DNA from: Diabrotica undecimpunctata | Lineage: Eukaryota > Arthropoda > Insecta > Coleoptera > Chrysomelidae | Direction: 5' to 3' | NCBI RefSeq assembly: GCF_040954645.1 | Contig: NC_092811.1 | Location: forward strand, 87,163,199-87,227,198 | DNA: 64,000 nucleotides | Shown: piece by piece, positions 13,201 to 60,351 of the stretch | Layout: the number at the start of each line of letters is the position of its first letter | Position numbering within the stretch: position 1 is the first letter of the stretch | Program-made: the position numbers and the translations under genes | Notes under the pieces: model-generated | What the model was told of the DNA's origin: nothing | The model's input: only the letters and a program-made list of their open reading frames with translations | Databases searched by the model: none

Positions 13201-16200
13201 AAAAAAGAAAATGTGTATGTTATTGATGAGTTGCTAAGAGAGCATGGTTATGAAGTGTTGAGACTACCTCCTTATCATTGCGAATTCAATACTATTGAAT
13301 TAATTTGGGCAAATTGCAAGTCATATTACAATAAGCATATTGGTAGGGACGGCTATTCTGATAGTGCTGTTATAAATATGTGGAAAGAGGCGCTTAATCA
13401 ATGTAATGGAGGCATTTGGGAAAAATGTGTAAGACATACTCATGAAATTATTCAAAAGTGGTGTGTCCGAGAGCAAAATATAGTTGATATTGATATTCAA
13501 CCCATCATAATAAATCCTGAAGATAGCTCGGATTCTGAAAGTGAAGAAAATATATAATTTTGATATTTTGTTTTTTTTTTTCAATTTATTTTAATCTTAG
13601 TCATTTAGTGATATTTGTGGAAATAAGTTGTAACAAAGTAATTGATCCATTCTTTAGGCTAAAATAATGAAACCTTTTACACATAACTTTCCACACTTTA
13701 TTTTGGAAACTACAGAGAAGTTCGATACACAAATAAAAAAAATTGATAAAAACCAGCTAGTATAAAAAATAAATACCAAGTCTCTAGGTATGCGACAAAA
13801 GGAACGTCGTATTATTTTAGCCTAACAGATTGAGTACTAAATGTAAATGTTTAATATTGTATTTTGAATGAAAACTTTTGTTTCATCCAGTAACTGGCTT
13901 CGGCTGTTGGATGCTTTGGTGTATAAATAAATATGAGAATTTAAGCTGTTTGATCTTGGGTCCATCTCTCTCAACTACAGTATTTCAAATAGAGCATTTC
14001 TTCCAATAATCATAATAACGTTGAATATGTAGAAAACAAAAACAAAAACAATCACTATAAATACGTTTAACGGGATATTAAACATTTCCTAATTATTTCA
14101 TGAATCTAGAAAAGACTTACGTTTGAGTTAAACGCTTTGATTTAATTCGTACAACTATGATGTGCAAAGATATAGCGAACGGAGTGTATATGCATTTTTC
14201 TACCAAGTTCTGTAATCTCAACTGCTATTGCTTCCAGATTATTTGTAAGTAGAAAATGTTTATGATCTATGGATTTGTTTACTAAAATTGCAACTCCCCC
14301 ACTTGCGCGAGCTGTGTTTGTTCGGTCTTTACGAAAGCATGTAAACTGTTTTGGCGAATTGGATTAGACGATACAAGATTAGTTTCCTATAGACAAATAA
14401 TTTCGGGACTAATTGAATTTCTGATTAAATGATATTAAGCAGTGGTAAGTTCATCAATATTCCACTGTAAAATAGAATTGAATATTATGTTTCAGTTGAA
14501 GAGAGTTCGTTGACAGTAGGGTCTTGCCCGAGAAAACGTATCAGTTTGGTTTTTAGCCCTTTTTAGTAGAACAATGTTTTATAGCTTTGTCTGGAATATA
14601 TTGTTAAGAGATGGTAAGCAAATAGATTGTTTATTAATAAATGATTCGAGCGACTTGGGGGTAGATAATAAGCGTTTAGATTTTTTTGGTTTTATGAGGC
14701 TGAGCAGGAAGAAGATTTTTATTAAATGATTATCAACAGTATTTTCGACAGGCGGAGATAATGTTTCATCTATGGTTCGTTTGGCGAAGGGACAGGGTGA
14801 TTCTTTCATGATCGCTAGTGAAGTCTGTGAAGGTATCTCCATATTTTCGGCTGTAGCAGAGTGGAGTATTTTCGTTGGTTTTAAAATCTTGGGTTGCTTC
14901 AGAAACAGGCTGTATAATTTGCACTGATGTAGAGTGGAAGGTGTTTGGTGTGGATACTTGTAGAATTATTTCTGTATTTTTGTTATTTTGATCATTATTA
15001 GAAGTTTGGCTAACTTGCAAATAAGCATTGGTAGAAGAGTCAGAAGTTTGAACAGTAGAGGTGGTTAAGAGTCCTGAAGGCTGAGAAGAAGCATTTTTAT
15101 TACTTGAAAAGTTACTAGCAATGTGAACTGTTTGTTTACAGATATAACATGTCATAATATCCTGCGAAATGAATATTGTATAACTAATATTATCATAATT
15201 TACAACAATTGAATCTGGGATCGTCATGTTATGCGGACTAATAAACACTTGTATTATAAAACTTAATTATCTGGCTATATTCTGGAAGGGAGGGAAGCAT
15301 TGATTTTTAAGAACGTGATTGGAGAAGCTAAGTTTAGGCCGAGATGTTTTAATTCTTGAATGATTACGTCATGTGGTATAGTTGGACAAACATTTGATAG
15401 AACTAGTGTTTCTGTCGTCGTTATAAGCTTTCTGGCCCTGACTATTTCTCCATGTACCTCTGTAGACCTAAAGTTCGTCTAAATTCCTTAACAGCTTGGT
15501 TGATATTTAAATATATACATATTCGATTGTTAGATAGACGAGACGTAAATAAGATGTTTTTGGGATTTATTAAATTACCTAAGGGGATAAGGTAATCTTG
15601 AAGTTGTGCATTATTAATAGCGCTGAAAAGTATTGCTTATTCTTTTGTTGGAAAGTTTTGCTGGGAGGCTGCTAAAGAATAAGATTTATTCTCTGAGATA
15701 TTCTGTACAGTAACATCTGATGACATGTTGATAATTTATTTTACGGTACTACAGAAACTAATTACCTTTCGTTTCCCGCAAAAACAGACTGGTTAATTAT
15801 TTATAATCCATAAACCTGTGTCTATCTACAATTGCTGTAGTAGACTAACAGGAATAGAAAACTAACGTAACTTGTTTAAAATTGCAACTATGCTTAAATA
15901 ATGTATGTGGAATAAAACTTACAGTTTAAAGTTTGCTCACTTTAACTATAATTAAAAACTAGAAGTTTCACTGGTAATAAGCAAAATATCAAGAGCCGAG
16001 ACACTCCGTGTTTACAACTCATTAACTTTCTATAAATTGTGTGGAAATAAACTCTAGTTGAAAAAAAAAATGAATGAACTCCGTTGTACGTTTTAGCTCC
16101 GTATTAGCTATTAAACTTGAAATTGTCATTTTCGCACAGCGTTGCCTTATTGTCAAGATAGTAGCAAATGTAGGGAATTATGAAATAATGAAAATGTACA

Positions 16201-19200
16201 AAAATCCAGAATAATGAATTATAAACAAGATTTTGTATTATCAAATTTAAATACAAAACAAATTGCTACTGGTTTAAAGTAATCATATTTGACATAAGTT
16301 ATCTCTATACTTTAATTGTGTTCTCAAGGATATGAAATACACATTAAAATAAATAGTCCCTAAAACGTATTAGAGAACTTCATCATTCTTTTTAAGGAAA
16401 AACATTTCACCATATATAGTTACATGGTTCTCCATCAAGAATGTTTTGAACCTCTCAAGGTTCTAGAAATTTATAAAATTTAATCAGTAAGATTAAATTA
16501 TAATTTAAATTTTCTTTAAGTAGCATGTGATCAGTTTGGATTTCGAAACTGTAGGGAAACTATGTATTGATTGTAGAGTGAACTCAGTAAGTAGCTCTAC
16601 ACTCGATGCAGTCGGTTCCAGGGGCTAGAAAAAGAACAGATATAGAGAAGTAAAGCTAAGCACACATTTTTAACACGAGTCGTGTTAACGCGCATTAACA
16701 CGTGTCATATAAATATCTATTACGTTATTTTAAATACGAATAAATCTATACATATTTTTGTGATGTATCGCCAAAGACCGACAACACGTTTTAACATGCC
16801 TAACCAGTATTTTCAATATCTAACGTGGTCAGCTTTTCGTCAGAGTGTTATAGAATGTTAAAACATCAAGACGAGGTTATATTCACCAGGCCGCGGTGCC
16901 GCGAGTTTATTTACAGATTTATTTTATTTATACATTTAAATATGGAGGAACGATTAATAGAAGAATAGAAGAGTACGAAGGTATGATTTTTTGTACAACG
17001 TACAAAGGATGAACCCAGTACTCTCTGGATTCATATCGTAGCACAAACAGTGCTGCAGTAACAGCTATCATTTCCTCTTCTTCAGCTAACTAATCCATCT
17101 CTTCTTGTAGGTGCTCCATTATATTATAAGCACTATTTCACGTTTAAAAATATCAAAATTTCAGCATACCACACGTTTTACAATACCGTATTTACAATAT
17201 TTTACGTATATGAGGTGCCGTGTTGACGCGTGTTAAAAATGTGTTAACTTTACTACTACTACTACTTGTCGGTTTATAACGTTCTCCGCCGTTTTCCGAC
17301 TTCCAATCGCCACTTAGTCCGGTTGTTCCATAGGTCTTCTTCTATGGTCCTCTCTCTCAGTTCTTTATTTATTCCTTCGCTCCAACTTTTTCTCGGTCTA
17401 CCTCGTTTTCTCTTTCCTTCTGGTTGCCATTTTAATATTTCTTTTGGTATTCGTTGTTCATCCATTCTTTGTATGTGTCCGAACCAGATAAGTTGTTTTG
17501 TTGTTAGGTCACCTGTGATTGTTCGTTTGATTCCCATTATTTCTCTAATGCGTTCGTTGGTAATCCTTTCTCTTCTAGATCTTCCTGCAGCTCTTCTCGA
17601 AAAATCCATTTCCGTCGCTTTCAGCGTTGCCAGTGTTCTTTCTTTCAGTGGCCATACCTCACAGCTGTACAAAGTGATACTTTTTACTGTAGTCTCATAT
17701 ATCCTCTTTTTATTTTCTTTGCTGATGGATTGGTCCCATAAAATGCTGTTTAACATTGTGATGGCTTTTCTCCCTGACGTATTTCTCTCTCTTATGGCTT
17801 TGTCTAATGTTTTGGCCATCTTTTTAAATAGTGATACCTAGATATTTGTAGTCACAGCAGTGCTTTATAGTGGTGTTATCGTCTAATATGAGATCTTTTT
17901 GTTCTACTCCAATGCACAGGTATTCGGTTTTCTTTTTATTTACTTCTAGACCCCATATATCATACTCTTCAATTAATTTTCGTGCCATACAGTTTAAATC
18001 GTCATAATCTTGAGCCATTATTACTTGATCGTCTGCAAAGTTGAGCGTATATACCATAGTGTTGGTGAGAGGTATCCCCATTCTCCTGCATTTTTGTTTC
18101 CATCCTTTTAAAGCACTTTCGAGGTATATTTTAAATAAAGTGGGGGACAGACAACACCCTTGCTTTAATCCTTTTGATGTTATAAATCCTGTTGTTATTT
18201 GTGTCCCTGCTTTTATTTTTGTAATTGGTTGGTTGTATAGCACTTTGATGGCTTTTATTAATTCTATATTAATATTCATGCTTTCCATTGATTGCCACAG
18301 CTTCTTCAGTGGAATGCTGTCGTAGGCTTTCCGTAGGTCGACGAACAACATATGAATCTCTTGATTCCACGCCATCTTTTTATTTTCTATTATCTGGGTT
18401 AAGGAGAAAATGTGGTCAATAGTGGATCGACCCGTACGAAATCCTGCTTGTTCTTCTGCTTCATAATCTAAGTATTCTCTCTCGATTCGGTTCTTTAAAA
18501 CCTTTCCATATATTCGGCTTCCATATATTCCGTCTCATAGATCCGGTTACAGCTATTCCTCGGTAATTTTCACAATTATTTTTATCGCCTTTTTTATGTA
18601 TAGTACTGAGGTACGATATCTTCCATTCCGTAGAGATTTCGCTTGTGTTTATGCATTCTTGAAATAGTTCGTACAATTTTTTCGTTCCGTACTTAAACAA
18701 TTCTTAGGGTATATCCCCTGGTCCAGGTGCTTTGTTCCTCTTCAGCTGTTTACACACATTCTTAATTTCCTCTGTTGTTAATCTTATTGGTGAGCCGACT
18801 ATTGAAATTCTATCTTGGTTTTGATTTCTATGTTCTTGAAATTCGACTCTATTCTCTACCAAAAGTCCTTTAAAATACTCTTCCCAGTCTTCCGGTTTTA
18901 TGCTCTGTATTACTTCTTTATTCTTTTCTTTTCTCAATTTTTTTATCAGTTTCCAACTTTCTGTGCTTCTGGTTCCTCCTAGATAAGTATTTATTCATTG
19001 GCAGTTTGTTTCCCATGACTCGTTCTTCTTCTTAGAGATTTTCCTTCGTACTTCTGCTTGTTTTTCTTTATATTTTATTTTGTCTTAACTTTACTGTTAA
19101 CTTTACACCTCTATAAAAAACAAGGACCCCTTGTCTAGCGTACAGACGAAGATCACAACGACTATGAGGACGGATTAGAAGAAAATTCGAAACGACGAAC

Positions 19201-31200: not shown

Positions 31201-34200
31201 GATTTATTTCTTAACATAGTCCCCGTTTAGCTTGATGTTCCAATTTTTTTATCCCATCCGAATAGTACTTTTGCTCGAGCTCTTCAAAATAGGCCGAAGT
31301 TTCAGCGACGACTTCATCATTTGTTGCGAAACGGTGTCCTCCGAGCCATTTTTCGGCCGATCGGTGAACCGGTGCATTGTCTTGGTGAAAGAGCACTTTT
31401 TTGCGTTCCAAGCCAGGGCGTTTTCGACGCAATTCGGCATCGAATCGTGCGAATGTGCACTCTTTGCCTTCTTCGCCGCATTTGCGCCACTCTGTTTCGA
31501 CTGTTCTTTGGTTTCTGGTGTGTAATAATGCACCCAGGTTTCATCAACGGTGATAAATCGGCGAAAAAAATCCTTCGGATTGCGTCGTATCATCGCCAAA
31601 AGCGTCTTCGAAGTGGTCACACGTTTTTGCATTTGATTGTTTGTCAGCAAACGCAGCACCCATCGCGCGGATAGCTTTTTCATGTCCAAATTATGGTGAA
31701 TTATGGCTATGTTGTGTACGCATTCGTAGAAAATGTTTAGGACCTCTATTAACTCGCAGTGCTTAATTCGACGATCTGCCATAATCATGTCATGGGCTTT
31801 GTTGATCATTTCCGGCGTGCTAACTTCATTTGGCCTCCCGGGACGCTCATCATCAAAAATACTCGTACGACCACGAACAAATTCAGCTTTCCAAAATTTT
31901 ACTGTTGCTAACGAAGATGCAACCTCACCATAAACTTCGTCCAGGTCGGCTTTGATTTGCACATTCGTTTTACCCTTTTTATGGAGGAACTTAATCACCG
32001 AACGATACTCGACTTTTTCCATTTCTCCGAAAACGCAAAATTTGCTTGCTTTTGACGGCTGTAAAAACCAAACTAATTGTTTTTAAAACTTAAAATTTTG
32101 ACAGACGTCATGTCATGAATGGCAATGTCAACACCGAAACCAATTCGGTATCATGTAGCGCCATCTATCAAAGGCTAGTTTAATATCAATCTATCCTCGT
32201 ACACAAGATAATTCAATAATTATGTTTACCCCCCCCCCCCTCCATCCTTCCGCTATTTTCCCCTTAATCGGAAAATATCGACGGCACGAAAAAATTTGGA
32301 AAGAATGAATTGTAGGAAATGCCATTTGCAACAATTTCAGCTCTTACCATTTTTGTCGAAAAGGCGAAAATGTCGAATATATTGAGCAAAAACGGTTCTC
32401 CTTCGGGCTTCAGTCGCGATTTTAAATTTATAGTAATATTGATCACAACTAAAAGTTCTTCTTCATCTTTTTATATAGACAGGGCTTTGTCCGTTTTTCA
32501 ATGTGCCTCCAGTAAGTTGTCGTTCCATCGTTTGCGTGGTCTTTCTACTGATCGTCTTCCTATTGGGGAACCGTCTTTTGCCGTCTTTACTACTCTATTT
32601 GTTGTCATTCGGCTTATATGATCGTTCCATTCTACTCTTCTATTTCTTATTCAGTTCTTGATATTGTTCTGAAGCTATTTTCTTGTGGTATTTTAAAGTA
32701 ATTACTATTTAAATGGAAATAAGCCACAATTAAAGGTTAAAGTACGTTTATTGACGTTTCAATTACTAATGTTTGTATTTTGAGAACGATTTCCGAAGTG
32801 GAAATTGAAACGTCAATAAACGTACTTTAACGTTTAATTGTGGCTTATTCCCATTTAAATAGTAATTACCAGTTCTTGATGTTCCCCACATTGCATCTAC
32901 GTCGTATATATGTACTTCTAGCTCTGTCCCATAGTGTCTTACCATAAATTTTTCTAGATGTTTTCATCTCTGCTGTTTCTAACATCCTTTTTGTTCTCTC
33001 TGTCAGGTCTTGTTTCTGCCGCGTATGTCATTGTTGGTCTGATGATTGTAAATTTGTTGTAAAATTGTTTTGTAAATTCTGCCTTTCGTTTCTTTCCCGA
33101 TATTTTTATTTCTCCATATTGTTTCATTTAGGCAGCCTGCGGCTCTGTTTGCTCTATTCACTTGATCTTCCACTTCGGTTTCGAGCTTTCCCTAGCTAGA
33201 TAATGTGATGCCTAGATATTTAAACTCCATCACTTGTTCTATTATCTGACCTTCCAGCTCCAATTTACATCTTAGTAAATTTGCTGTTGTAACCATGCAT
33301 TTTGTTTTTTTTTCGGGAAATTAACATGTTAAATTTTCTGGCGGTTATATTGAATTGGTGCAGAGCATACGTTGTAAATCATCTTCACTTTGAGAGAGCA
33401 GTATTGTGCCGTCTGCATAGCAGATTATTTTAAGTTGTTTTTCTCCCATTTGGTATCCTTTTTTAGTTATTACTTTTTTTATTATTTCGTCCATAATTAG
33501 GTTGAACAATAGAGGACTCAGGGAACTCTTCCTGTCTTATCCCATTGCCAGCTTCAATAGGGTCGGTTAGTTCTTCTTCTACTTATTATTCCTAGAGGTA
33601 TTTCTCTTGCACACAGTAAGTGGATAACGTCTTTTAATTTGACCCGGTCACATGCCTTTGTAAGGTCCACGAAACATAGATATGCCGGTTTGTTGTATTC
33701 TCATGATTTCTCTTGCACTTGCCTCATTATAAATATAGCGTCGGTGCATGATCTTCCCGACCTAAAACGTTGTTGTTCTTCTGCTAGTGTTATAATCTTA
33801 TTCAATTTATTTGTTATCACTTTGGTTGTTAATTTTAGTGTTGCGTTTAATAAATTAATTCCTCTGTAATTTTCCGGGTTAACCTAAAAGTTACAACAAT
33901 AAAATTTTGGGCAGCTCGCCATGCAAGGTCAAATGCTATACCGACTGGATTATCGAGCCCAAAAAGGATAACGATGAGAGTACTGAACACGATGTGAACA
34001 ATACTGATCAAGGAATAATAAAGCCTACTACCCCTAAAGAAGTAACCAAAGTAATCAAAAATAATATCAATCCCGAAAAGTTTCCGGAATTTGACTTAGT
34101 AACAGGAGAAATACTAAAACAATTACCTAGGAATGCCATTGTAAAACTCACAAACCTTATAAATACACTATTAAGGTTACACTATGTATCAATAACCAGG

Positions 34201-37200
34201 AAAACAGCTATACTAATCATGATTTCCAACCCAGGAAAAAAAGTAAATAAAGAAGAATCGTACAGGCTACAACTGATCTCCAAATTATTTGAGAAAATAT
34301 CAATTTCTTACGAGATTCCGTAATAAACACTAAACAATTTACCAAATATATCGCATATATTGTAGATATCTCTAGAAAAGAATCCGATATGCTCAGCTAT
34401 TTTCCTAGACATAGCAACAGCGTTTGATAATGTGTGGCATAAAGGCTTGGTACTAAAACTCAAAAAATATCTTCTCATTCACCATACCAAGCTAATACAG
34501 TCATTAGAGTTAAACAGGAAGATGGATATTCAGAACTATTAATTAAACCAGGAATCCGTACATCCCTGCGACGGAAAATATTAAACTGGTAACATTTGCA
34601 GACGACACTACAAACTAACAGTCGGTGAATCATTCGAAGAAACAACTAGACACCTTCAAAATGCAGTGAATGAAATAAACACTTGGAATAATACATCTTC
34701 TCTTCTCTTCTTTTTTTTTAAATAGACATGACTATGTCTGTTGTTCAATGTGCCTCCAGTAAATTGTCGTTCCATCGTTTTCGTGGTCTTCCTACTCATC
34801 GTCTTCCTATTGGGTAACCGTCTCTTGTCGTCTTTACTACTCTATTCGTTATCATTCGGCTTATATGATCGTTCCATTCTACTCATCTAATTCTTACCCA
34901 GTTCTTGATGTTCTCCACCTTGCATCTACGTCGTATATCTGTACTTCTAGCTCTGTTTCATAGTGTCTTACTATCAACTTTTCTAAGTGTTTTCATCTCT
35001 GCTGTTTCTAACATCCTTTTTGTCCTGTCTGTGTCAGGTCTTGTTTCTGCCGCGTATGTCATAATTGGTCTGATGATTGTTTTGTAAATTCTGGCTTTCA
35101 TTACTTTCCCGATATTTTTATTTCTCCATATTGTTTCATTCAGGCAGCCTGTGGCTCTGTTTGCTCTATTCACTTGATCTTCCACTTCAGTTTTAAGTTA
35201 TAGTCTTAAGTCTCAAACTATATTTAACAAGTAGTAATTTAATGCAGATAGGCAAACCAACATAGACCAAAGGCTCACTAGGCCAAGGTCTACAGATTGG
35301 GAAATAGCCACAGCAATCACAAGATCAAACAGAATTAGATGAGGTATAAATAAGTTTCGGCCATATAAGTCTCCAGGGACAGATGGCATATATCCAATAC
35401 TGTTGCATATGGGATTAGAGGTATTGATACCACACCTATGCAAGCTCCTCAAAGCCAGTTTAGCATGGCGGGTTGTACCGGAAATACGGCAAAAGGTTAA
35501 AGTCATATACTTGCCTAAGGTAGGTAAAGTATCAGACCTAACACCAAAGTCATATAGACCGATAAGCCTATCTTCTTTTCTATTAAAAACGGTGGAAAGG
35601 CTTCTTGATAGATAAATCAGAGACGAAGTGCTAAAAGATAATCCTCTAAGCAATCGTCAATATGCATAGCAACCTGGTAAATCTATGTACTCTGCGTTGG
35701 ACGATCTAAATAGGCTTATCTCAAAGTCAATGGAAGACAAAGAGATAGCAATGGCCGCTTTTTTAGATATAGAAGGGGCATTTAATAATGTTACTACCAG
35801 CTCTTTGATAGGAGCTATGAGTAGACGAGGCGCACCTGCGGTAATATGCAGATGGATAAGGCCATCCCTGGAGAATAGGACAGTAATGTCCACTCTGGGT
35901 AAAGCAACCATCAAAGCAAAAGTAGGTGGAAGCTGTCTACAAGGAGGAGTTCTGTCCCCTCTACTTTGGGCAACCTTGGTAGATGATCTCCTCAGAAATC
36001 TGTCCACAGAAGGCTTTTATTGTCTAGTATATGCTGACGATATAGCAATAGTTGTCAGGGGCAGGTTTGCTCAGGTGATGTCTGAGACAATGCAAGCAAC
36101 CCTAAATATTGTTGACGACTGGTGCAAACAAGAGACACTGATAGTCAATGCTCAGAAAACACAAATCATCAACTTTACCGTAAAAACAGCACTACAAGGC
36201 CTAAAACCACCGGTGCTGGGAGGAACAGAGATTTCATTTGCCAAAAAAAACAAAATACCTTGGGGTGTATTTTGATCATAGGCTTACATGGAAAACTCAC
36301 ATTCTGAAAACCACACAGAAAGCTACTATATCCTTGGGCAGATGTAGAAGAATGCGCGGTAAGAATTGGGGACTTACGCCCAAAATGACTCTATGGTTTT
36401 ACACCAAGGTTATTAGACACATGATAACCTATGGCTCGGTGACGTGGTGGACAAAGACTCAGCAAGTGGGAGCAATATCTACCACCACTTCATATCTTTA
36501 TGCAGGGCGAAGCCAAATCAGTGATGCACATATTAATCCATAGTCAGCGACATATAAGCCAGATGCATGGTTCTGACAGCAGAAAGCTAATCGATGAGCT
36601 AAAAGCCGATATTGTGATGGGGCAACCTATTCTAGGTTGTTGAATTGGCAATTCTAAAAAATAAAAACCTAGATGAAAGAGATTTAAGGCTAATAACAAA
36701 CCTTTATTACAATCAGCGAGCAATAGTACGAATTGAAAAAGAGACATCTGAAGAAATGGAAATAAAGAGAGGAGTCAGGCAAGGCTGCATACTATCACTC
36801 TATTATTTAACGCTTATTCTGAAGAGGTAGTTCGAGAAACTCTGGAAGATGAAACAGTCGACATAAGAGTAAATGGAGTCTTAGTTAACAACATCAGATA
36901 TGCAGGTGATACAGTAATACTAGCCGATAGTTTACAAGATCTGGAAAGACTCATAGGTAAAATAGTAATGTGTAGTAGGGAGTACGGACTCTCGCTCAAT
37001 ATCAAAAAGACGAAGCCAGCAGATCGAAAGAGTAAAAAAGTACACTTACCTAGGAACACTTATAACAGAAAATAATGACTACACTGCAGAAATCAAAGTC
37101 AGAATCGAAAAAGCACGTTCTAATTTTATGAAAATGAAAAAGGTCCTATGTGGCAAAGATTTAACATTAGCTCTTAAAGTACACCTAACAAAATGTTACG

Positions 37201-43200: not shown

Positions 43201-46200
43201 GTAAGACGTGACTATGGATGAAGAATACGCCGTATGTATTTAGAAAACTAACATTGGTAACTTAATAGGTACCATTTATCCTCTCAACTTCAATATTGTT
43301 GTATATCGATGTTCTTATATAATATTTACCTTTAGTGATATACTTGACTTTTTTTTACAATTAATTTTTTTCGATTATTTAATACCGCAATCCCTTGTGG
43401 TGTTTTTTATATACACATATTATTGTCAGATTATGTTAAACGGTTATGTAGCTTAGAAGTGTGCTTTGGTGCGGGATATGGAGACCTATCACAGCCAACT
43501 TTAACAAGTAATATCGAATTAATAATCAACATGCTTTTTACATTTTTATCAATTTGTTTCTGCATCTCTCTCCTCTTCTGATGACGTATGTGAAAATGTT
43601 CATCGTCCTCTTATGAAAGCTTTTAGTATTAAACGCTTGATTTATACAATGTAAACCTGTTATATCAGTATTATGTTAAACGGCTTTACGTCTATACCTT
43701 TTTATATTAATAACACATGTTAAATGTTTCTAAATCGTGTGATCTAGAATATTATGCCTAATATCAAACTAACTGCGCTAAACGGGTGCGCGTACGGTTC
43801 ATACCACTCTGCAACTTTTTCGCATCTCATGTACATTTAAATATTTTTTTATACCAATTATCGGCACATGTTATTATTAAGCTCCGTGGCTTAGCGATGT
43901 GCATGCTTAGCTTCGGTGCAGTTGGTCGCAAGTTCTGGTCCCACTCAAGGAAGAATTTTTTTTTTTTTTAATAATAATTAATAATTTAATAATTTTAAAA
44001 GTGATTAAACATAATTAATCGGGCTGTAGTCCAATGACGTCACCCCGCCGAGGTCATGTGGGCTATTGTGTGGCGCGAGGGGCTGCGTCGAGAGTGCGGG
44101 GTCAAAGGTCAAACTGTGGTATAGTGAGGCCCTATCTACTAAAATACCTCTCTGTGATGTGAATGTTCTTGATGTGATTGACTAGAAGCAGTCTGTCTTT
44201 GCCATCTGCCTCCTCTGCGAACGTAAACATTGGGTCCACTGAAACCTCCACCGAAGAACATATTGAAGAGTTCTTCAGCTGTAGCATCCGATTCAAAACC
44301 TCTTGTGTAAGTGTGATGATGAGAATGAGATGACAACCGGTCTTCGTCTGATCCGTACATGTCATACTGTTTTCTCTTTTCTGGATCAGTAAGCACAGCA
44401 ACAGCATTACCTGAAGAAAAAGCGACAAAGAAAATATGGAAGATTTATTTGTAAAAAATATATAAAATTAAATTTAACTTTATTAACCAAAGTTTATACG
44501 CTTATATTGTTGACAAATAATTTGTGCACCTTATTACAAGAATTAAAGAAAGCCCAAAATTTTTAATTCAGTTGGACAAAACAACTGATATGACTATAAA
44601 CCCGCCATAAACACGGGGATTGGGGAGCACGGAAGGAGCCTCCACGCAAGTGATATTATAAGAACAAAATGTCACTGACGCTCCCTGGAAACGCCCCTCG
44701 GGCGGCCAATCCTTCCACCACTGGATCTGAACAAAGTAACGAGAATCAACGGCTCTTCTCAGAGCCTACACTGACAATGATGACCATAAACATTGAGGGT
44801 ATTACTTGTAACAAACAGGAAATTTTGTCTGAACTGTGTAAAATCCACAAGTGTGATATATTATGTATACAAGAGACTCACCGTGACATATCAGCACATA
44901 GATCTAGCGTTGAGGGAATGCAGCTTATCATTGAACATCCAAGTGCAAAACATGGAAGCGCCATCTTCGTGAGAAGAGATATTGATGTAACATCAGCTGA
45001 AAAACATGCTACAACGACATTGAAATTCTGACCGTCAAAATAGGAGCCTGCACACTGCACAGTGACATCTGTGTATAAATAACTCCAGAGAGACTTTGTT
45101 TTCTCCCCTCCAATAAATTTCGCTTCTCAAAAAACCAGATTCATTCTCGGTGATTTTAATAGTCATAATGTTCATTGGGGCTACGCTTCAACTGATAATA
45201 ATGGAGATCTTGTGGAATCATGGGCTGAACAAAACAACCTGGCACTTCTACATGACCCAAAACTGCCCTATTCGTTCCAGAGCAAAATATGGAAGAAAGG
45301 TTACAACCCTGATCTCACCTTCATCAGCATGTCTTTAGAGGACCGTTGCGTTAGGAAGGTATATAAGCCTATACCGAAGATGCAACATACGCCCGTGGGA
45401 ATAACCGTTTACAGCGTTATAAAAGCTTCCAAAATCCCTTTCAAACAAATGTTTAATTTCAAAAAAGCGAACTGGGCAAAATTTGATGATGAATTGGAAA
45501 CACAAGTGAAAAATATTGTCCTGATCCTCAAAAACTATGAAGCGTGCATCAAACTTGTAAAACGAATCTCATGTAAACACATACCTAGAGGATGTCAACA
45601 ACATTACATATCTGGTCTGAACGATGAAGCAAAAGACATTATGACAAAGTACACGGAAGAATATAGTAAAGGCCCATTTAGCGAAGTTACAGCAGAGATA
45701 GGGGAGAGACTGCAGCAAACACTAAGTGCCTCCAGACAAATAACTGGCAAATAGATTGACTATTTCATCACCATTCTGAGCTATTACATCCCCACCTTTA
45801 TTAGACATTACATTAGGATAAGCACTAGACCCACATATAGCACTAACATACCTCCAAAAACAGTGGGGATTACTTAAAAGATTTGCTTGAATATTCTCTA
45901 CATAGTTCTTATAACATACTGCTTGTAATGATTTACACCTTTCCCTTAACACCGAAAATTCCTCATATGAGTTGCCTGATGCTTTAAAATTCCTGTGAGC
46001 TATTTTTTTCTGTATGACAAGCACAATTAATTCTCACGAAAACCAAACTGAAAAGTTTAATGATTTAAACTTATGCAGATCTAATAAATAGGCACATACT
46101 TATACATAATATTTATAAGAGACTGAAAATTTTAATTATATTGTTAATATAATAAAGGCTAAAATAATTATTATAGACATTATATTATAGAGTTAAAACA

Positions 46201-47342: not shown

Positions 47343-49739
47343 GGGGAGACCGGGCCTGGTTGGTACACTTTTCAAATCAAGGCGCCTATATTTTTTTTAC
47401 TGATAAATGGTAAGAAAATATGTTTAATTTCCTGATTAGTATTGTCTTATTTACATAAATTTCAAATTACTTAATGTTCGGACTTATCCTAATTCCATAA
47501 TTTAATTTTTTCCTTAAGGGCGCAAGTGTACCAAGCAACCTCGTATTCGAGGTTAGTTGGTACACACCTTGGGGTTGGTTGGTCAAGACAGAAACTAGGA
47601 GATTGATTAATATTTTTATTATTTTCATATACAATTCAGCCTACAAAAAGTTAATATTATAAAAAAATCCGTGTCTATTCTTAGAAAAAATGAATAATCT
47701 AATCAGATCCATCCGAATCGCAATTGTGACACACGTAGAACAAGCCCACATCTGCGTATTTTTCATGTGTCCACAATTTTCATTCATTGCACTGAATCCA
47801 TTTCTCGTTAGACAAATTATTTGAAAAGGGTTCAACGCAAATCAGGCAGAAGGTGTCCTCATCATACTTGAATCGTCTTTAATTTTTGCTTGTTTTTTCG
47901 TGTTCTTTTTATTTTTGCCAAACCCCTGTTTTTTAATTGATTTCGTTTTATTTTCTTTTTTCTTTTTCTCTTCTTCTAAAGCATCTTTAATAGGAGTATC
48001 TGTCAAAATTTCAGATTTTCTTTTTTTGCGACCATGTTGCCTTTTTCTTTCTGCGGCTTTTGGAAACGATTTCAAATTTTCGAGATCTGTAAAATTACAT
48101 GTTGCTTCTTTATTAGGGGTCTTGGGGCACTGCAGATTTTTAGGTACGAAAATATTTGGACCTTTTTTGGTAGGCGTCTGACTTTCTTTAATTCTGCTTG
48201 GTCCAGCTTGCTGCGTGTCTTCGTTAGAATTAGTTTGTTGGTCCGCCAATGGGTTGTCGACAAGGATTAAAGTCACGTACCGGTTGATTTGTTTCAACCT
48301 ACAATACGGGATTGTTTTTCCTCGATAGCTTGCAGATCTTGTTTACGATCTATCTCTGACATAAGCAGCCATAAATTTACTGTCCGGAAAACTATTAAAT
48401 GGATAAATTCCGGAAACCTGAAATCCAGCTGTAATATTGTTTGGTGTTGTCGCTAATGGTAGTGCAGTACGAACTATACTGGGTATGTCATAAATGGTCA
48501 TCGTTGCGCCAGGATGATTAGTCATCCAAGAGTCACACGCACTATTGACATACTTTTTTAATGGTACATGCACACTGCGATCCAGTGGTTGGAGCTTATG
48601 GCTGCAGTGAGGTGAAAAGGATAACACTGTTATGCCGTGATCTTTGCAGATGTTTAGTGTCTCAGGAGACAAATGCGAATCGTGTATGTCTATCAAAAGT
48701 AGGAGAGGGTTTTCTTTACATGCCTTGCAGTATTTGATAAAATGCTGGATATAATGTATAAAATGAACTTCTTTCATCCAGCCTGACTGATTAGCACTTT
48801 CAGCGCTTCCAGCCGGGGCATCTGTGAGGAAATGGGGCTTAAAAATTACTCGAGGAAATATAAAAAAGGTGGCACAGTATATCCAGTAGCAGAAACAGCA
48901 CACGCTAGAGTTACAAGCGTGCCACGTTCTGCTGAAGTAACTCTTCCCACTTATTTAACAACACGTCTTGCCACAATACGATCAGGTCCCTGAACTGTAG
49001 TAATCCCTATTTCGTCCATGTTCCAGATGTCCACAGGACTAAAGTTAAATCTTCCAAGGACAATTTCTAGATTGCTGAATAATCTTTTCACATTTATTTT
49101 GTTGAAACTCGTCGCTCTAGACAAACTGGTAGCTTCAGGCGTCCTTATAGCCAATTCAGCATTTCTCTGTAAAAACGATATAAATTAATTGGGGCCTGTT
49201 TTCTCATTAGTTTTCCAGCTATTTGGAACCGAAAAATTCAAAGAAGTTGCGTATAAAAAAGCTAATTCTCACTTCTTTGGGCGTAAGACCATAATAAATA
49301 TCTGCAGATTTTTTGATGTAATCTGCGAGGTTAGACTCTTGAATATCGGTAAAAATCAAAAACCAAATATTTTATTAGTAAGTAGACCATCAAGGATACT
49401 ATTTTTTACAAAACCTTCCTGTCTATTTTTAGAGTATCCAACAATTGTTGAAGGCATTTGCGTTTGTGCTTGCAGTTCCTCTATCGTAAATTTGCAGCAA
49501 TATCTTCTTAACGTGTTAAAAGGAATTTTAAAGTCACCAGCAGCAGACCTTAGAGATTGCCCTGTGCACCAAGTAAAACTCACAAAACGACGCCCACACA
49601 CCAATGATAACTGTCATCAACTGGCGCGTATTCCAACACCTCCCGAAAAATAAGAGCAACGCCGGTTTTACCCGAACGGATGCCGAAATATTAGAAATTT
49701 ACCAACCAACTCCTGTGCCCAACTAACCCCGGTCTCCCC
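47343..49739 (-). mobile_element. pogo/Tigger-type element with TIRs
   Basis: The ends are GGGGAGACCGGG..TGGTTGG on the left and, on the complement, GGGGAGACCGGGGTTAGTTGG. TA flanks both (47341-47342, 49740-49741). The element is 2.4 kb, a plausible full length. The sequence between TIR and coding repeats the 'ggttggt' words. Confidence 0.88.
47640..49650 (-). pseudogene. Tigger-like transposase with C-terminal zinc-finger relic
   Basis: Order on the minus strand: N-terminal Psq-like helix-turn-helix (about 49600-49440, 'QSLRSAAGDFKIPFNTLRRY'), 'EATSLSRATSFNKINVKRLF' and 'FSPVDIWNMDEIGITTVQ' with the first catalytic Asp (about 49010), then 'NPLLLLIDIHDSHLS' with the second (about 48690), 'SPHCSHKLQPLDRSV' and 'VNSACDSWMTNHPG' with the third Asp (about 48530). 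A Lys-rich, low-complexity region follows (48270-47880), and a cysteine-rich C-terminus (about 47850-47700) resembles a PHD-type finger in broken frames. Several stops and frameshifts: it is inactive. This class is common in aphids and beetles. Confidence 0.82.
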
Positions 49740-53790: not shown

Positions 53791-53910
53791 AATTTTTAAT
53801 TGAAGGTGATTACTTGGCAACATAGCACTTAACGAAACCCTTAACGATAACTTTTCAACGACATCATATTCCACTTATCAATTTTGCAGAGGCGTACCAA
53901 AAAAATTTTT

Positions 53911-54573
53911 AATTATTTATTTAAACACATAAGTAATTACGTAAAAATTAAATCTAAGACCGATATAATTATTAAATTATCGTGTGTCTTGTAAGAAGTA
54001 TCTTATAGTTGTTTAACAAAATAAAGTAAAATTTTATTGTTATTATAGAGTACCTAATGCAGTACTTCAAAAAACAAAAATCTTTGCAAAATACTTATTT
54101 TTTCATTAGACGAAACAATTTGAAATTTTAACATACAATCTCGTCTTTGCACTTCATTCTCTATTTATAGAATTGCTGTCTGCTATAAACGTTATATTTG
54201 TTTTGTTTAACTTGATTTGAATTGATTGAATTATTTATTTAAACACATAAGTAATTACGTAAAAATTAAATCTAAAACCGATATAATTATTAAATTATCG
54301 TGTGTCTTGTAAGAAGTATCTTATAGTTGCCTAACAAAATAAAGTAAAATTTTATTGTTATTATAGAGTACCTAATGCAGTACTTCAAAAAACAAAAATC
54401 TTTGCAAAATACTTATTTTTTCATTAGACGAAACAATTTGAAATTTTAACATACGATCTCGTTTTTGAACTTCATTCTCTATTTATAGAATTGCTGTCTG
54501 CTATAAACGTTATATTTGTTTCGTTTTAACTTGATTTGAACTGATTTAATTATTTATTTAAACACATAAGTAA
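53911..54573 (+). repeat. Tandem repeat, about 318-bp unit, copies 1, 2 and start of 3
   Basis: Units start at 53911, 54229 and 54548 with 'aattatttatttaaacaca'. The first two are nearly identical. The third is interrupted after 26 bp by the gypsy element and resumes at 59922. Confidence 0.85.
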
Positions 54574-54857
54574 TGTTACGAACATGCTTTCGAGATGGCC
54601 CAGGTAACGGTTGCATTGCATCTCTAATACCCTTCCAGAAGCTTCTCCGTGTATCGAGTGCGAGAGAGAACAACAGGTCACGTAGGCAAAATTAGAGGTG
54701 GGACAACTCCCGAATGTTCTGGAACTCAATACTTTTGGTATATATATGACGCGATTTTAGAAGTAGAGTTAGTTGTTAAGATACTACCGAACTGTAAAGT
54801 TATAAATAAATGTATGTATATAAATTCGAACCGCTCGTTTTATTTAATCACGCTACA
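54574..54857 (+). repeat. 5' LTR of the gypsy element
   Basis: 284 bp. It contains a TATA box (TATATATA, from 54739) and AATAAA (54805-54810), so promoter and polyadenylation signal are both present. It is followed by 'gttggtgtccggtgtgag', in which TGGTGTCCGGTGTGAG is the likely primer-binding site; the cognate tRNA is not determined. Confidence 0.93.
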
Positions 54858-55025
54858 GTTGGTGTCCGGTGTGAGATTTGCAAATAAATTCAGCAGTGAC
54901 TTTTGAAAAAGACTTTTGAACTTTTGAAAAGTATTGTTCGTCGGGAACATCCGCGTAGTTAGTACATCCGGTAGTGTCCTTTGTACGAAAGAACATTTAA
55001 AAAGTACGTGTGTGCCTGACCAAAG

Positions 55026-57497
55026 ATGCTGCTAGTACAACTTTCAGTAAAACAGTTGCGTGAGCAACTGGAAGAACGCGATGAAGATTGCAGCGGGTCC
55101 AAAAAGATACTTCAAGAACGTCTGAAGACTGTTCTCAACAAGAATGGAGATGACCCAGAGACATTCCAGTTTCAGTCAGCGGAAGAAGCAGTTTTAATGA
55201 AGATAGAAGAAACTTCTAAAAAAATTGAAGAAACGTCTAAAAAAACTGATGATAAATTCGAGACTGTTTCCAAAAGATTCGATGAAACGTCTCAAATGAT
55301 CGAAGAAACTTCTCAAATTATTAAAGAAACAGCCAGACAAAACGACGAGAAATTCGAAAATATGTCTAGAAGATTCGACGAAGTATGTAATCAAAACAAT
55401 GAGAAATTTGAAGAAGTCTCAAGAACATTTGATAAGATACAGAAAAATGTTAACGATAAGATAGAAGACGTAGAAGAGAAGATCAAACAATTAGAGACCA
55501 TGATAACTAACACAAAAGTGCTACCACCAGTTAATACAATAGCCTTAGATCCGGTAGTGAAAGAAGAATCACCCAGAGACGAAACGACACATAATATGAG
55601 ATTCAAATTGCCACCATTTGATGGAAAGTCTTCTTGGTCCATATACCTTAGACAATTTGAAGCTATTGCGACAGCCAATCATTGGACAGAACAAGAAAAA
55701 GCTGTTTCCTTGACTGCTGCTTTACGAGGTGATGCTGCAGATATCCTAAGATCGATTCCTAAGGGTCAAGAAAAATGTTACCAGACCTTGTTTACCCGAC
55801 TAGACAAACGTTATGGAGATGCCCATCTACAGCAAGTCTACAAAGCGCAACTAAGAAGTAGAATTCAACGAGCAAGTGAAAGTTTGCAAGAGTTTGAAGC
55901 AGATGTTGCTCGTATAGTGCGGTTGGCTTATCCGGAGGTACCAGACAACATTTTGGAAGAAATTGCTGTAGATGCCTTCGTCAATGGGTTAAGAGACATT
56001 GAACTACAGAAAGCTTTACGACTAGCAAGACCGAAAGTTTTAGATGAAGCGCTCGCTATTGCCTTAGAACATGAAACAGCTAGTCAAGCTTCACGGAGCT
56101 ATCGAGTACGAACCTCTGAAGAGAGCGACGAACAAAACGAGAAACGTCTGGAGGAAATCGTACGGAAAGTAGTTCGTGACATGATGCCGAAGAGACGTGA
56201 ACCCAGATGTTGGAATGGTAACGACGTAGGTCACATTCGTCGTAAATTGCAAGAAAATAATACAACAGTCAGAAAACTAGAACGGGTCGACAACAAGGGG
56301 CAACTGCCGACCTCGAGAAACACAGCCCCCATAGTAACTGTGAACATTACGTCCTCAGGTGGAATTCATAGCTTGTACATAGAGGGTCGTATCAATAATA
56401 AAAGTAGATCGTTTTTGGTAGATACAGGTGCAACGAGAACTATTGCACGGCCAGAAGTAGTACGAGGCCATCTTAAATTATTGCCTGCAACAGTAAAGCT
56501 TAGAACAGCAACTGGTGAGATAATTAATACATATGGCGAGGCTAATATGTCAGTATCCATTGGCCAGACCACAGTGAAACATACAGTATTAATTGCAGAG
56601 ATCTCCGATGAGTTCATATTGGGGATGGATTTACTAAGGAAAGTTGGGGCTGTATTGAATGTCAAAGATGGAGTTCTCGAGATCAGTGGTGAAGAGTTGC
56701 CGTTTCATGAAGACAAAGAAGATGTTATCAGCTTAATAACTACTTGTGACGTAACAATACCCGGTAATAGTGAGAAAATTTTGATGACCAGACCTGATGG
56801 TTACTGCCGAGAGGGAAGTTTAAGGATGGTCGAAGATGTGAATAATGCCGAGTTCCTAACGGCAAAAGCTTTGGTGAGAATTCGAGATGTCGTTCCTGTA
56901 AGAGTTATGAATTTAAAGGGAACTGCTATTAAGTTAAGTAAAAGAACTTTGATCGGACAGTGTGTTCCCGTGGCTTCGATTTGTTCCATGAATACTAATG
57001 AGAAACCGTCGAAATCTAAGTATCCAAAGGAGCTTGTTGAGACGATGATTAAAACGTGCCAAGATCTTGATGATGAACGAACTAAAAAAGTGAAGGCTAT
57101 GCTGATAGAATTTCAAGATGTTTTTGCCATGGATAAGAAGGATAATGGCAAAACAAGCATAGTAAAGCATAAAATTAATACCGGAGACGCTCAGCCAATC
57201 AGACAACAACCTAGACGACTTCCATTTGCGAAAAGAGATGAAGCCGAAGACATCATCAAAGATATGAACAAACAAGGGGTAATTGAACCATCAAACAGTC
57301 CATGGACATCACCAGTAGTCCTAGTAAAGAAGAAAGATGGTTCAACACGTTTTTGTATTGACTACCGACAGCTCAATGCAGTAACTAAAAAAGATAGTTA
57401 TCCTTTGCCCAGAATAGACGATACTTTGGATACACTTTCTGGTTCTCGTTGGTTCTCCACACTCGATCTGAAAAGTGGATATTGGCAAGATGGTTAG
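55026..57497 (+). CDS. Gypsy Gag-Protease-RT(N-terminal) polyprotein, truncated by deletion
   Basis: ATG at 55026, 823 codons. Residues 5-38 form a SAP-like DNA-binding motif ([20 protein letters not shown]). About 59-165 is a coiled coil with 'EETSKK'/'KFE.VSR.FDE' repeats. About 190-358 is the capsid-like Gag region ('[12 protein letters not shown]', '[12 protein letters not shown]'). Near 393-407 is a degenerate zinc knuckle ('[13 protein letters not shown]', one Cys replaced). The aspartic protease has '[11 protein letters not shown]' with Asp466 and a 'FILGMDLL' flap partner. RT starts about 718 ('[20 protein letters not shown]', '[13 protein letters not shown]', '[12 protein letters not shown]', which carries the first catalytic Asp). 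The frame then stops after a deletion junction, so YVDD and RNase H are absent. Gag and Pol are in one frame, without the usual shift. Confidence 0.9.
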
Positions 57498-59626
57498 AAC
57501 GATTACAAGAATATGATTACGAGATCGAACACAGGGCTGGCAGAGTTCATTCCAATGCTGATGCCCTTTCGAGACGACCGTGCAGTGCAAATTGTAATCA
57601 CTGTCTTAAATTAGAAGAACGACTTTGCCCCGTGAGACGAACCACCGTCATTAATGAGCAATGGCAGCCTCAACAGCTACAAGACGCTCAAGCAGATGAT
57701 CCATGTATAAAAAGAGTATTGGATTGGATGCGTCGAAGTGAGAGACCTTCTTGGCAAGACATTAGTGCATGTAGTCCAGAAGTCAAGTGTTACTGGAGCC
57801 AATGGAATTGCCTAGTGCTGAAAGATGATCTTCTGTATAGAACCTTTGAGAACGATGATGGTACAGAAACTAAGCTTCAGTTAATTGTACCTAAAAGTAA
57901 AGTGTCAGAAGTATTGCGTCAGTTGCATGACGGTGCATCAGGTGGACACTTTGGTATCACGAAGACTCTGCAAAAGGTTCGAGAACGGTTCTATTGGGTG
58001 AACTGTAAAGATGATGTAAGAAGATGGTGCCGGAAATGTGAACTGTGTGCAACCAGTAATGGTCCAGCTGGTAAAAAGAGGGCACCCATGAGACAGTACA
58101 ATGTTGGTAGTCCTATGGAAAGAGTAGCAATCGACATTTCAGGTCCACTTCCAGAGACAAATGATGGAAATAAATATATCCTGGTAGCCATGGATTATTT
58201 TACGAAATGGACCGAGGCCTATGCGATACCAAATCAAGAAGCTGCTACCGTTGCAGAGGTACTTGTTAAAGAATTCTTTAGCCGATTTGGTGTTCCTTTG
58301 GAGATCCACTCCGACCAAGGGCGAAACTTCGAGTCAACCCTTTTCCAAAACGTCTGTAAATTGATTGGTGTCAATAAGACCAGAACGACACCCCTGCATC
58401 CTCAATCAGATGGAATGGTCGAGAGAATGAACCGAACAATGGGTAAACACCTGTCCAAAGTTGTATCGGAACATCAAAGAGATTGGGACCAGCACATTCA
58501 TTTATTCCTAATGGCCTACCGCTCGGCCGTGAATGAAACTACAGGCCAGACTCCAACCTGCCTGATGTTAGGTCGTGAAGTTCGTTTACCCTGCGACCTA
58601 GAGTTTGGCTGCAGACCTTCCGAAGAACATGTTGCAAGCGAAGATTATGTCGACCGCCTGAAGTTAAGAATGAACAACATTCATGAACTTGCCCGACAAC
58701 ACATCCAGATAGCCAGTGACAGAATGAAAGATCAATATGATTCTCGATGCAAGAGTGAAAGCTATGAAGTAGGTGATCTTGTTTGGCTTTATAATCCGCA
58801 ACGTCGTCGAGGCTTGTCTCCCAAACTGCAAAGACAATGGGAAGGTCCATATGAAATTAAAAAGAAAATAAATGACGTAATATACCGAATTAAGAAGTTG
58901 CCGAAAGGTAAACCAAAAGTAGTTCACATAAATCGTCTTGCACCATATGCTGGCTCAAATGAAACAGAAGAAGCACGAACCCTTCAACATGAGATCAAAG
59001 ATGACCGGCGACCAAGCTTTAATGAATTTATGTCAAATTACGCAGAGAGAAAGAGTGCTAGATTCGGCGTGACCAGAGAAGTTCAGCAGGATCTTTTTAG
59101 GGTTCCGCATAACGTCTCTCTAGCCCACTGTGTTGCCCAAGATCTTGAGATGACTAAAGGAATCTCATCTGTATTTTATAAGAAATTCGGTCGTTTGGAC
59201 GAGTTAAAAAACCAGCAGCCTAAAGTTGGAAGAGTACTGAGATTAGAAGATGGTTCTCGATCTTTGCTGTATATGGTGACCAGGAAGTCGTATACAGACA
59301 GGGCAAGCTACGAGGATATATGGCGTGCTCTAACTAATTTGAAGAAAATTGTGTGCAATTACGACATCAAGAATTTGGCCTTACCCAAGATAGGTCATGC
59401 ACTAGATAATCTGGACTGGAAGATTGTCAGAAGCATGCTTGAAGTGATCTTCCGAGAAACCGGCGTAGGAATTACTGTGTGTTGCATTAACCCGATGAAA
59501 TCGTATCCTTCAAAGTCAGTAGACTGTTATTTCTTTCTAAAGGGTTCATGCAGAGCTGGAGAGTCCTGTAGATTCCGCCATCCTGTGCCTACATATAGAG
59601 TTGCTGATCGGGACGGTCAGATTTAA
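57490..59626 (+). CDS. Gypsy Pol remainder: RNase H tail, integrase, macro domain, CCCH finger
   Basis: Out of frame with the upstream part; no start codon of its own is needed if translated as polyprotein in the parent element. Numbering here counts from 57449. Starts with the RNase H tail '[18 protein letters not shown]' and 'NADALSRR'. Integrase: H-H-C-C zinc region about 155-210 ('GGHFGITKT', 'CRKCELC') and a DD35E core, Asp229 (VAIDISG), Asp289 (HSDQG), Glu325 (MVERMN), followed by a GPY/F module ('[11 protein letters not shown]'). About 545-682 is a macro domain of the TARG1/OARD1 kind ('[11 protein letters not shown]', '[16 protein letters not shown]', '[15 protein letters not shown]'). 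About 691-712 is a Cx7Cx5Cx3H zinc finger. Stop TAA 59624-59626 next to the purine tract. Confidence 0.88.
59080..59495 (+). other. Macro (ADP-ribose) domain within the gypsy polyprotein
   Basis: This region of about 138 residues follows TARG1/OARD1 order: '[17 protein letters not shown]', '[20 protein letters not shown]', 'NQQPKVG', '[20 protein letters not shown]', '[15 protein letters not shown]', 'ITVCCINP'. The Asp of 'GHALDNL' aligns with the catalytic Asp of TARG1 (Asp125). At the nucleophilic Lys position (Lys84) this copy has Arg followed by Lys, so hydrolase activity is uncertain, while ADP-ribose binding remains plausible. The frame is open with the integrase. Confidence 0.85.
59518..59585 (+). 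other. C-terminal CCCH zinc finger of the gypsy polyprotein
   Basis: '[20 protein letters not shown]' is Cys-x7-Cys-x5-Cys-x3-His, the spacing of RNA-binding CCCH fingers. It is unlike the CCHC knuckle of Gag, which is degenerate in this copy. Confidence 0.85.
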
Positions 59627-59637
59627 GAGGGGAGCAG

Positions 59638-59921
59638 TGTTACGAACATGCTTTCGAGATGGCCCAGGTAACGGTTGCATTGCATCTCTAATACCCTTCC
59701 AGAAGCTTCTCCGTGTATCGAGTGCGAGAGAGAACAACAGGTCACGTAGGCAAAATTAGAGGTGGGACAACTCCCGAATGTTCTGGAACTCAATACTTTT
59801 GGTATATATATGACGCGATTTTAGAAGTAGAGTTAGTTGTTAAGATACTACCGAACTGTAAAGTTATAAATAAATGTATGTATATAAATTCGAACCGCTC
59901 GTTTTATTTAATCACGCTACA
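59638..59921 (+). repeat. 3' LTR of the gypsy element
   Basis: 284 bp, no difference from the 5' LTR seen by eye, preceded by 'aagaggggagcag' (polypurine tract). Confidence 0.93.
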
Positions 59922-60195
59922 GTAATTACGTAAAAATTAAATCTAAGACCAATATATTTATTAAATTATCATGTCTTTTGACAGGTGTCTAATAGTTGTC
60001 TAACAAACTAAAGTAAAATTTTATTCTTATTAGAGAGTACCTAATATAGAACTTCAAAAAACAGAAAACTTTGGAAAATACCTATTTTTTCATTAGACTA
60101 AACAATCTGAAATTTTAACATACGATCTCGTCATTACACATCATTCTCTATTTATAAAATTGCTGTGTGCTGTAAACGTTGTATTTGTCTTTCTT
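59922..60195 (+). repeat. 318-bp tandem repeat, remainder of copy 3
   Basis: Resumes with 'gtaattacgtaaaaattaaa' directly after the 3' LTR. It is more diverged from copies 1 and 2 than they are from each other. Confidence 0.85.
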
Positions 60196-60351
60196 AATTT
60201 AAAGTTTTCTTGTGTTTATTTGTTTATATAAATATAAAAATATAGTATGAAGTTCATATAAATTAAAATGAAGTAAGCTAAACTATTATTATGTGAATAC
60301 GTGTATATAGTAGTGCATTTGCTTATTTCAGTAAATTCTCGAAATATGAAA

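Follow-up and report, generated by a model that had tools for sequence, protein, structure and literature searches.

TARG1 (OARD1, C6orf130) is a hydrolase of the ALC1-like macro domain class that frees Asp/Glu and the ends of nucleic acids from ADP-ribose (PMC7050489; here and below, what is credited to PMC articles reflects the parts of them available to us). We describe a domain of this type in a Ty3/gypsy-type long terminal repeat (LTR) retrotransposon of the beetle Diabrotica undecimpunctata. The element lies in a 64,000-nucleotide stretch of contig NC_092811.1 (assembly GCF_040954645.1, forward strand, positions 87,163,199 to 87,227,198), which we call the window and to which all coordinates refer. 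It is a recently inserted copy, lacking most of its reverse transcriptase (RT), of a beetle family in which Pol ends with a macro domain and a CCCH zinc finger. The element domain differs from TARG1 in being fused behind integrase and followed by the finger.

Chromoviruses are likewise of the Ty3/gypsy type and have an extra domain directly after the C-terminal module of integrase. That domain is a chromodomain, whereas the beetle element carries the macro domain and the CCCH finger; no chromodomain was found among the Pfam matches of the window element up to E 1. Fish epsilon-like endogenous retroviruses with macro-domain open reading frames (Basta et al. 2009, cited in PMC4977317) are also LTR retroelements that acquired a macro-domain gene. 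Compared by description only, the fish macro domain is an additional open reading frame, whereas that of the beetle element is within Pol, is TARG1-type and is accompanied by a finger. TARG1-like macro domains of phages and insect viruses belong to the same subfamily by sequence or fold. In our tree, which was built without the viral proteins, the phage-like rows form a separate group (support 100/98). Among viruses, Kadipiro virus VP8 was the top structural match to the model of the element macro domain P0127 (BFVD A0A8E0KJF2; 43% identity, 157 columns, root-mean-square deviation 5.9), and the next ones include thrips-associated flavi-, virga- and negev-like viruses. The macro domain of the DarG antitoxin, a partner in a bacterial toxin-antitoxin system, shows about 22% identity in the structure comparison. 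When IMG/VR was scanned with the macro profile, 20 stretches fitted the pattern and none of them was confirmed.

According to an initial annotation of the window, no described Ty3/gypsy lineage is known to have the macro-CCCH pairing. In agreement with this, neither a Ty3/gypsy element with a TARG1-type domain nor one with a macro domain and a CCCH finger was found in the open-licence literature (titles and abstract starts, among the matches listed). Gypsy elements make up 0.31 Gb of D. v. virgifera, and the beetle macro family is not named in the available part of that report (PMC8982398).

The macro domain and the zinc finger of the window copy

From the end of RNase H, the second frame of the element (57398-59626) stays open across the H2C2 and core (rve) domains of integrase, the module p58_C (PF22938), the macro domain and the CCCH finger, and the polypurine tract comes directly after its stop. 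We take p58_C to be the GPY/F-type module. The continuous frame is as initially annotated, and the assignment to gypsy-type retrotransposons is also supported: the LTRs are paired and of the TG...CA type, the target-site duplication is short, and the Pfam domains follow the order gag, protease, RT, RNase H, integrase, although this copy has lost parts of RT and RNase H by deletion.

The same annotation had called the domain behind integrase a TARG1-like macro domain. A profile search of macro families supported this in part. The Pfam model PF01661 stayed below its cut-off (16.7 bits against 22, E 0.0071), whereas PDB chains of human TARG1 matched at 2.2e-27 across 134 residues. With Pfam's Macro model alone, the domain would go unseen. 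An AlphaFold model of the domain (mean pLDDT, the predicted local distance difference score, 88.1) had TARG1 entries as its top matches in both structure comparisons. By fold and by sequence, the domain is thus of the TARG1 (ALC1-like) type, as proposed. The finger, annotated as Cx7Cx5Cx3H, conforms to the pattern C-x7/8-C-x5-C-x3-H with ligand codons starting at 59525, 59549, 59567 and 59579, and PF00642 recognized it with 26.3 bits (cut-off 20.5).

The catalytic residues of TARG1 are Lys84 and a second residue printed as Glu125 in PMC7050489 but as Asp in PMC9411070; the PDB chain has Asp. The window copy has Arg at the place of Lys84 and Asp at that of Asp125, as first noted, and so lacks the full TARG1 pair. 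The loop around Asp125 reads GHALDN, compared with GCGLDR in human TARG1 and GCGLDG in most TARG1s. The tree has 17 element rows from outside Diabrotica; all 17 have K at the equivalent of Lys84, and 16 have D at that of Asp125, the remaining row having H. Neither residue varies in the 20 animal-type or the 20 phage-like rows. The Aromia set (n=121, P0130 included) has K in 119 proteins and D in 118 (two rows gapped, one G), and 30 further rows, judged element-type by eye, have K in all 30 and D in 25, with H in one and a gap in four. Position 84 is R in all seven Diabrotica-type rows (window included) and in 4/4 Diabrotica rows of the tree; position 125 in the seven is E in five, V in one and D in one. 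Since the pair is intact in nearly all rows from other hosts, the Arg is a derived state of the Diabrotica lineage and not characteristic of the family.

Recurrence of the tail in beetle elements

The tail recurs in several beetle genera. The alternative that it is private to this copy, as a read-through into host sequence, was rejected on this ground; the initial annotation had named such a private tail as one of the outcomes that would speak against its proposal. A first search with the whole tail as query returned seven proteins. Integrase core, p58_C, macro domain and finger are joined in P0001 of D. virgifera, P0002 of Harmonia and the ENA protein P0005. Of the Aromia proteins in this search, two have SAP, p58_C, macro domain and finger, and one has gag and macro domain. 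The seventh protein is P0007 of Callosobruchus. A second search, with P0003 of Aromia as query, gave 184 matches, and the best 120 of 184, query included, were all from Aromia. The third search used macro domains only (181 matches, best 120 of 181 considered). Among the matches listed were pieces from D. undecimpunctata, D. balteata, Brassicogethes, Pyrocoelia and Gonioctena, and also Leptinotarsa, Acanthoscelides, Callosobruchus and the leafhopper Macrosteles, together with fly OARD1s. Five families are represented among the beetle hosts that were checked (Chrysomelidae, Cerambycidae, Coccinellidae, Nitidulidae and Lampyridae); Macrosteles belongs to the Hemiptera. The closest tail among the matches listed was that of D. 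virgifera P0001 (85% across the entire tail), and the macro query matched a D. balteata fragment at 90% over 81% of its length.

Macro domain and finger are paired in Diabrotica, Harmonia, Aromia and Callosobruchus, and the finger pattern is complete in the window copy, in P0001 and in 112 of the 121 proteins of the Aromia set. In P0007 of Callosobruchus, the macro domain is in one protein with RT and RNase H families and a DTGA protease-type motif (by eye); the finger is absent from its gene model. The macro-CCCH tail is therefore a trait of an element family across several beetle genera. P0132 and P0140 of Macrosteles group with the elements in the tree and have N-termini like the integrase linker; they are treated here as macro-only and as doubtful members.

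Six proteins with element-type macro domains (P0125, P0128, P0132, P0140, P0144 and P0180) are named "ADP-ribose glycohydrolase OARD1-like" by NCBI/UniRef, as though they were products of host genes. One of these, P0144 of Leptinotarsa, retains the C-terminal domain of integrase (PF22938).

A tree of 61 rows, unrooted, was made from a selection of 244 fetched proteins with the window copy and human TARG1. One branch, supported at 100/98 and present in 100% of 200 bootstrap trees, separates the 21 element rows from the others. A branch likewise sets off the 20 phage-like rows (100/98), and the animal-type rows have 86/89. One phage-like row, P0187, matches 89 phage records, all below 60% identity. 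This unrooted tree points to no donor of the element macro domain.

Sequence identity was compared among the window copy, P0001, P0002 and P0005, leaving out the close pair window-P0001. Identity is 49-55% in the macro domain and 35-47% in the linker before it (34 residues). The integrase core reaches 71-78%, and the C-terminal part of integrase 53-61%. Site by site, the entropy of element macro domains follows that of cellular TARG1s (Spearman 0.63, 134 sites).

Possible functions of the tail

We favour the reading that the macro domain is an eraser of ADP-ribose that travels with Gag-Pol, with a probability of roughly 0.45. It is favoured because TARG1 removes ADP-ribose and because phages and insect viruses carry TARG1-like macro domains. 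The Lys/Asp pair is kept in most of the family, which suggests that the domain most likely removes ADP-ribose there. As a part of Gag-Pol, it would travel in the particle. Its most likely task would be to take ADP-ribose set by host poly(ADP-ribose) polymerases (PARPs) off element proteins or off RNA or complementary DNA ends, and this removal would act during particle life and integration. Hazardous RNAs, e.g. transposon-derived or viral ones, may be recognised with the help of ADP-ribosylation, as a review speculates (PMC7050489). The CCCH finger would keep the macro domain on the element RNA and might replace the zinc knuckle of Gag. In the Diabrotica lineage the pair is altered, Lys to Arg and Asp mostly to Glu, so that the domain there probably only binds ADP-ribose or works by changed chemistry. 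The Arg is no proof of inactivity, because SCO6735 hydrolyses with Gln at the place of the Lys, and the Asp is missing from DarG (PMC9411070). A longer chain appears improbable to us: insect PARPs would restrict retrotransposons by ADP-ribosylation, and for this reason beetle elements would carry a particle-borne eraser, guided to element RNA or complementary DNA by a knuckle-replacing CCCH finger, which in the Diabrotica lineage would have become a reader that directs integration.

Several observations weigh against an eraser guided by its finger. The nucleophile position is Arg in the window copy, and P0145 has no Asp at the equivalent of Asp125. The finger is complete in only 10 of the 30 element-type rows from outside Aromia and Diabrotica (Harmonia and Callosobruchus among the 10) and in one of six fetched Diabrotica rows; the incomplete rows are mostly cut-short gene models. 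P0126 of Brassicogethes and P0180 lack the first finger Cys, and no finger was found in the gene models of Pyrocoelia and Macrosteles. The loss of the CCHC ligands from Gag is known from two hosts only, the window copy and Aromia, and unusual Gag motifs occur elsewhere too, in CsRn1 and Saci-2 (PMC2582038). The sites that vary within Aromia show no significant avoidance of the positions conserved in TARG1 (Spearman 0.15, p 0.08, 136 sites; 68 distinct aligned domains from 120 proteins), so that constraint is seen between hosts only. This result could be expected of young copies.

A serious rival, which the initial annotation left unnamed, is that the tail is a chromatin tether of the chromodomain kind. 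The macro domain would then read ADP-ribose on chromatin, at damaged or open sites, and steer integrase, with hydrolysis secondary or lost. The tail occupies the position behind integrase that the chromodomain has in chromoviruses (PMC3605345), which makes a reader or tether the main rival, above all for the Diabrotica lineage, where the fold is retained despite the changed catalytic pair. However, a mere reader needs neither catalytic residue, and both are almost invariant outside Diabrotica. A single insertion site was seen, within a repeat array. We regard this reading as possible but tend to doubt it. The tail might instead act mainly on the RNA of the element, with the finger standing in for the nucleocapsid in packaging and the macro domain serving as a structural spacer or as a partner that binds RNA or ADP-ribose. 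The CCHC ligands are indeed lost from Gag in the window copy and in Aromia. Of 244 fetched proteins, 99 have a Gag motif, all from Aromia, and no knuckle was found in the 244, whether by the intact CX2CX4HX4C or by a laxer pattern; in 42 Aromia proteins a remnant of the CCHC knuckle resembles RWNGAKVRHIRGRR. Because the window copy has Gag, protease and RT in a single frame, a finger carried by the end of Pol could also match Gag in abundance, which is a lead and not a result, and the finger pattern is present in the 112 Aromia-set proteins mentioned above. But this reading leaves the conserved catalytic pair unexplained, the knuckle loss concerns the two hosts only and the finger is incomplete in many other rows, and we consider it unlikely.

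It is very unlikely, in our estimate, that the tail is a passenger that was captured once and is tolerated without a function for the element. The within-Aromia test and the predicted proteins with a missing or cut finger agree with a passenger, but the tail is kept, on one side of a branch, in five families of beetles, and its pocket residues are conserved where identity is about 50%. Finally, the macro-CCCH frame could be an artefact, i.e. a host gene beside a solo integrase or a read-through, and the name "OARD1-like" that NCBI gives to several relatives would fit this. Its position inside the LTRs, ahead of the polypurine tract, and its recurrence behind integrase domains of other beetles make this explanation hardly credible.

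Organization of the element, its surroundings and implications

The coordinates of the element are collected in the table. The LTRs are identical base for base and GTAA flanks both ends, which indicates that the insertion is recent. It interrupts the third unit of a tandem repeat array with units of about 318 bp (53908-54574 and 59903-60200): two units and the 30 first bases of the third lie upstream of the element, and the downstream unit is about 87% alike. An internal deletion with a frame change near 57490, absent from the initial annotation, takes out most of RT and RNase H. The copy thus cannot be autonomous and was probably mobilised by an intact relative. Gag also includes PF03732 (Pfam). 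PF02037 (SAP) is precomputed for many Aromia relatives among the matches listed.

Table. Features of the retrotransposon copy in the window.
Feature	Position	Strand	Basis or remark
Target-site duplication GTAA, left	54570..54573	.	Same letters as 59922-59925
5' LTR, TG...CA, 284 bp	54574..54857	+	0/284 mismatches to 3' LTR
Primer-binding-site-like stretch, 2 nt past LTR	54860..54877	+	Position and TGG start only
Single frame of gag, protease and RT; ATG 55026, ends early in RT	55026..57497	+	Open reading frame; Pfam gag, protease, partial RVT_1
SAP-like domain, start of Gag	55038..55130	+	PF02037 23.6 bits, slightly below cut-off 23.9
Direct repeats within Gag, coiled-coil-like by eye	55202..55436	+	Three 85-nt copies
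Degenerate Gag zinc knuckle	56208..56249	+	2/4 CCHC ligands remain (sequence)
Retroviral-type aspartic protease	56379..56639	+	PF13975 E 3.3e-11
First part of RT, up to internal deletion near 57490	57324..57500	+	PF00078 partial; comparison with P0007
Integrase H2C2 zinc-binding domain	57887..58060	+	PF17921 E 3.4e-21
Integrase core (rve)	58112..58402	+	PF00665 E 8.1e-15
Integrase C-terminal module p58_C	58844..58945	+	PF22938 E 4.7e-12
TARG1-type macro domain	59066..59488	+	
CCCH zinc finger Cx7Cx5Cx3H	59525..59581	+	PF00642 above cut-off
Polypurine tract, adjoins stop codon	59627..59637	+	Sequence
3' LTR, 284 bp	59638..59921	+	Identical to 5' LTR
Target-site duplication GTAA, right	59922..59925	.	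Matches left copy

All 12 of the 12 relatives picked for a check against window 59627-59640 end in LRRGQC-like letters. Their frame apparently includes the polypurine tract and reaches into the 3' LTR, whereas that of the window copy stops just before the tract.

Elsewhere in the window there are RT and endonuclease-RT pieces at 17827-18534, 35670-36272 and 45083-45751 (PF00078 twice, PF14529). DNA-transposon pieces lie at 6571-7089, 13000-13554, 31252-32082 and 48346-48954; their families are DDE_3 (twice, one slightly below cut-off), a Mos1-type helix-turn-helix (below cut-off) and DDE_1. An open frame of 319 amino acids at 2131-3087 has no Pfam match at E 0.001 and is perhaps a host exon.

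The "OARD1-like" names carry a warning, as such genes in insect annotations can be pieces of retrotransposons. The tail hints that elements of this kind must cope with ADP-ribosylation by the host. In it, ADP-ribosylation and insect LTR retrotransposition are linked naturally and repeatedly, and versions with an intact or a changed catalytic pair can be set side by side. Should the domain be active, a direct test of whether PARPs restrict retrotransposons would become possible. Should it instead be a reader, integrase would have a new kind of targeting module, alongside the chromodomain.
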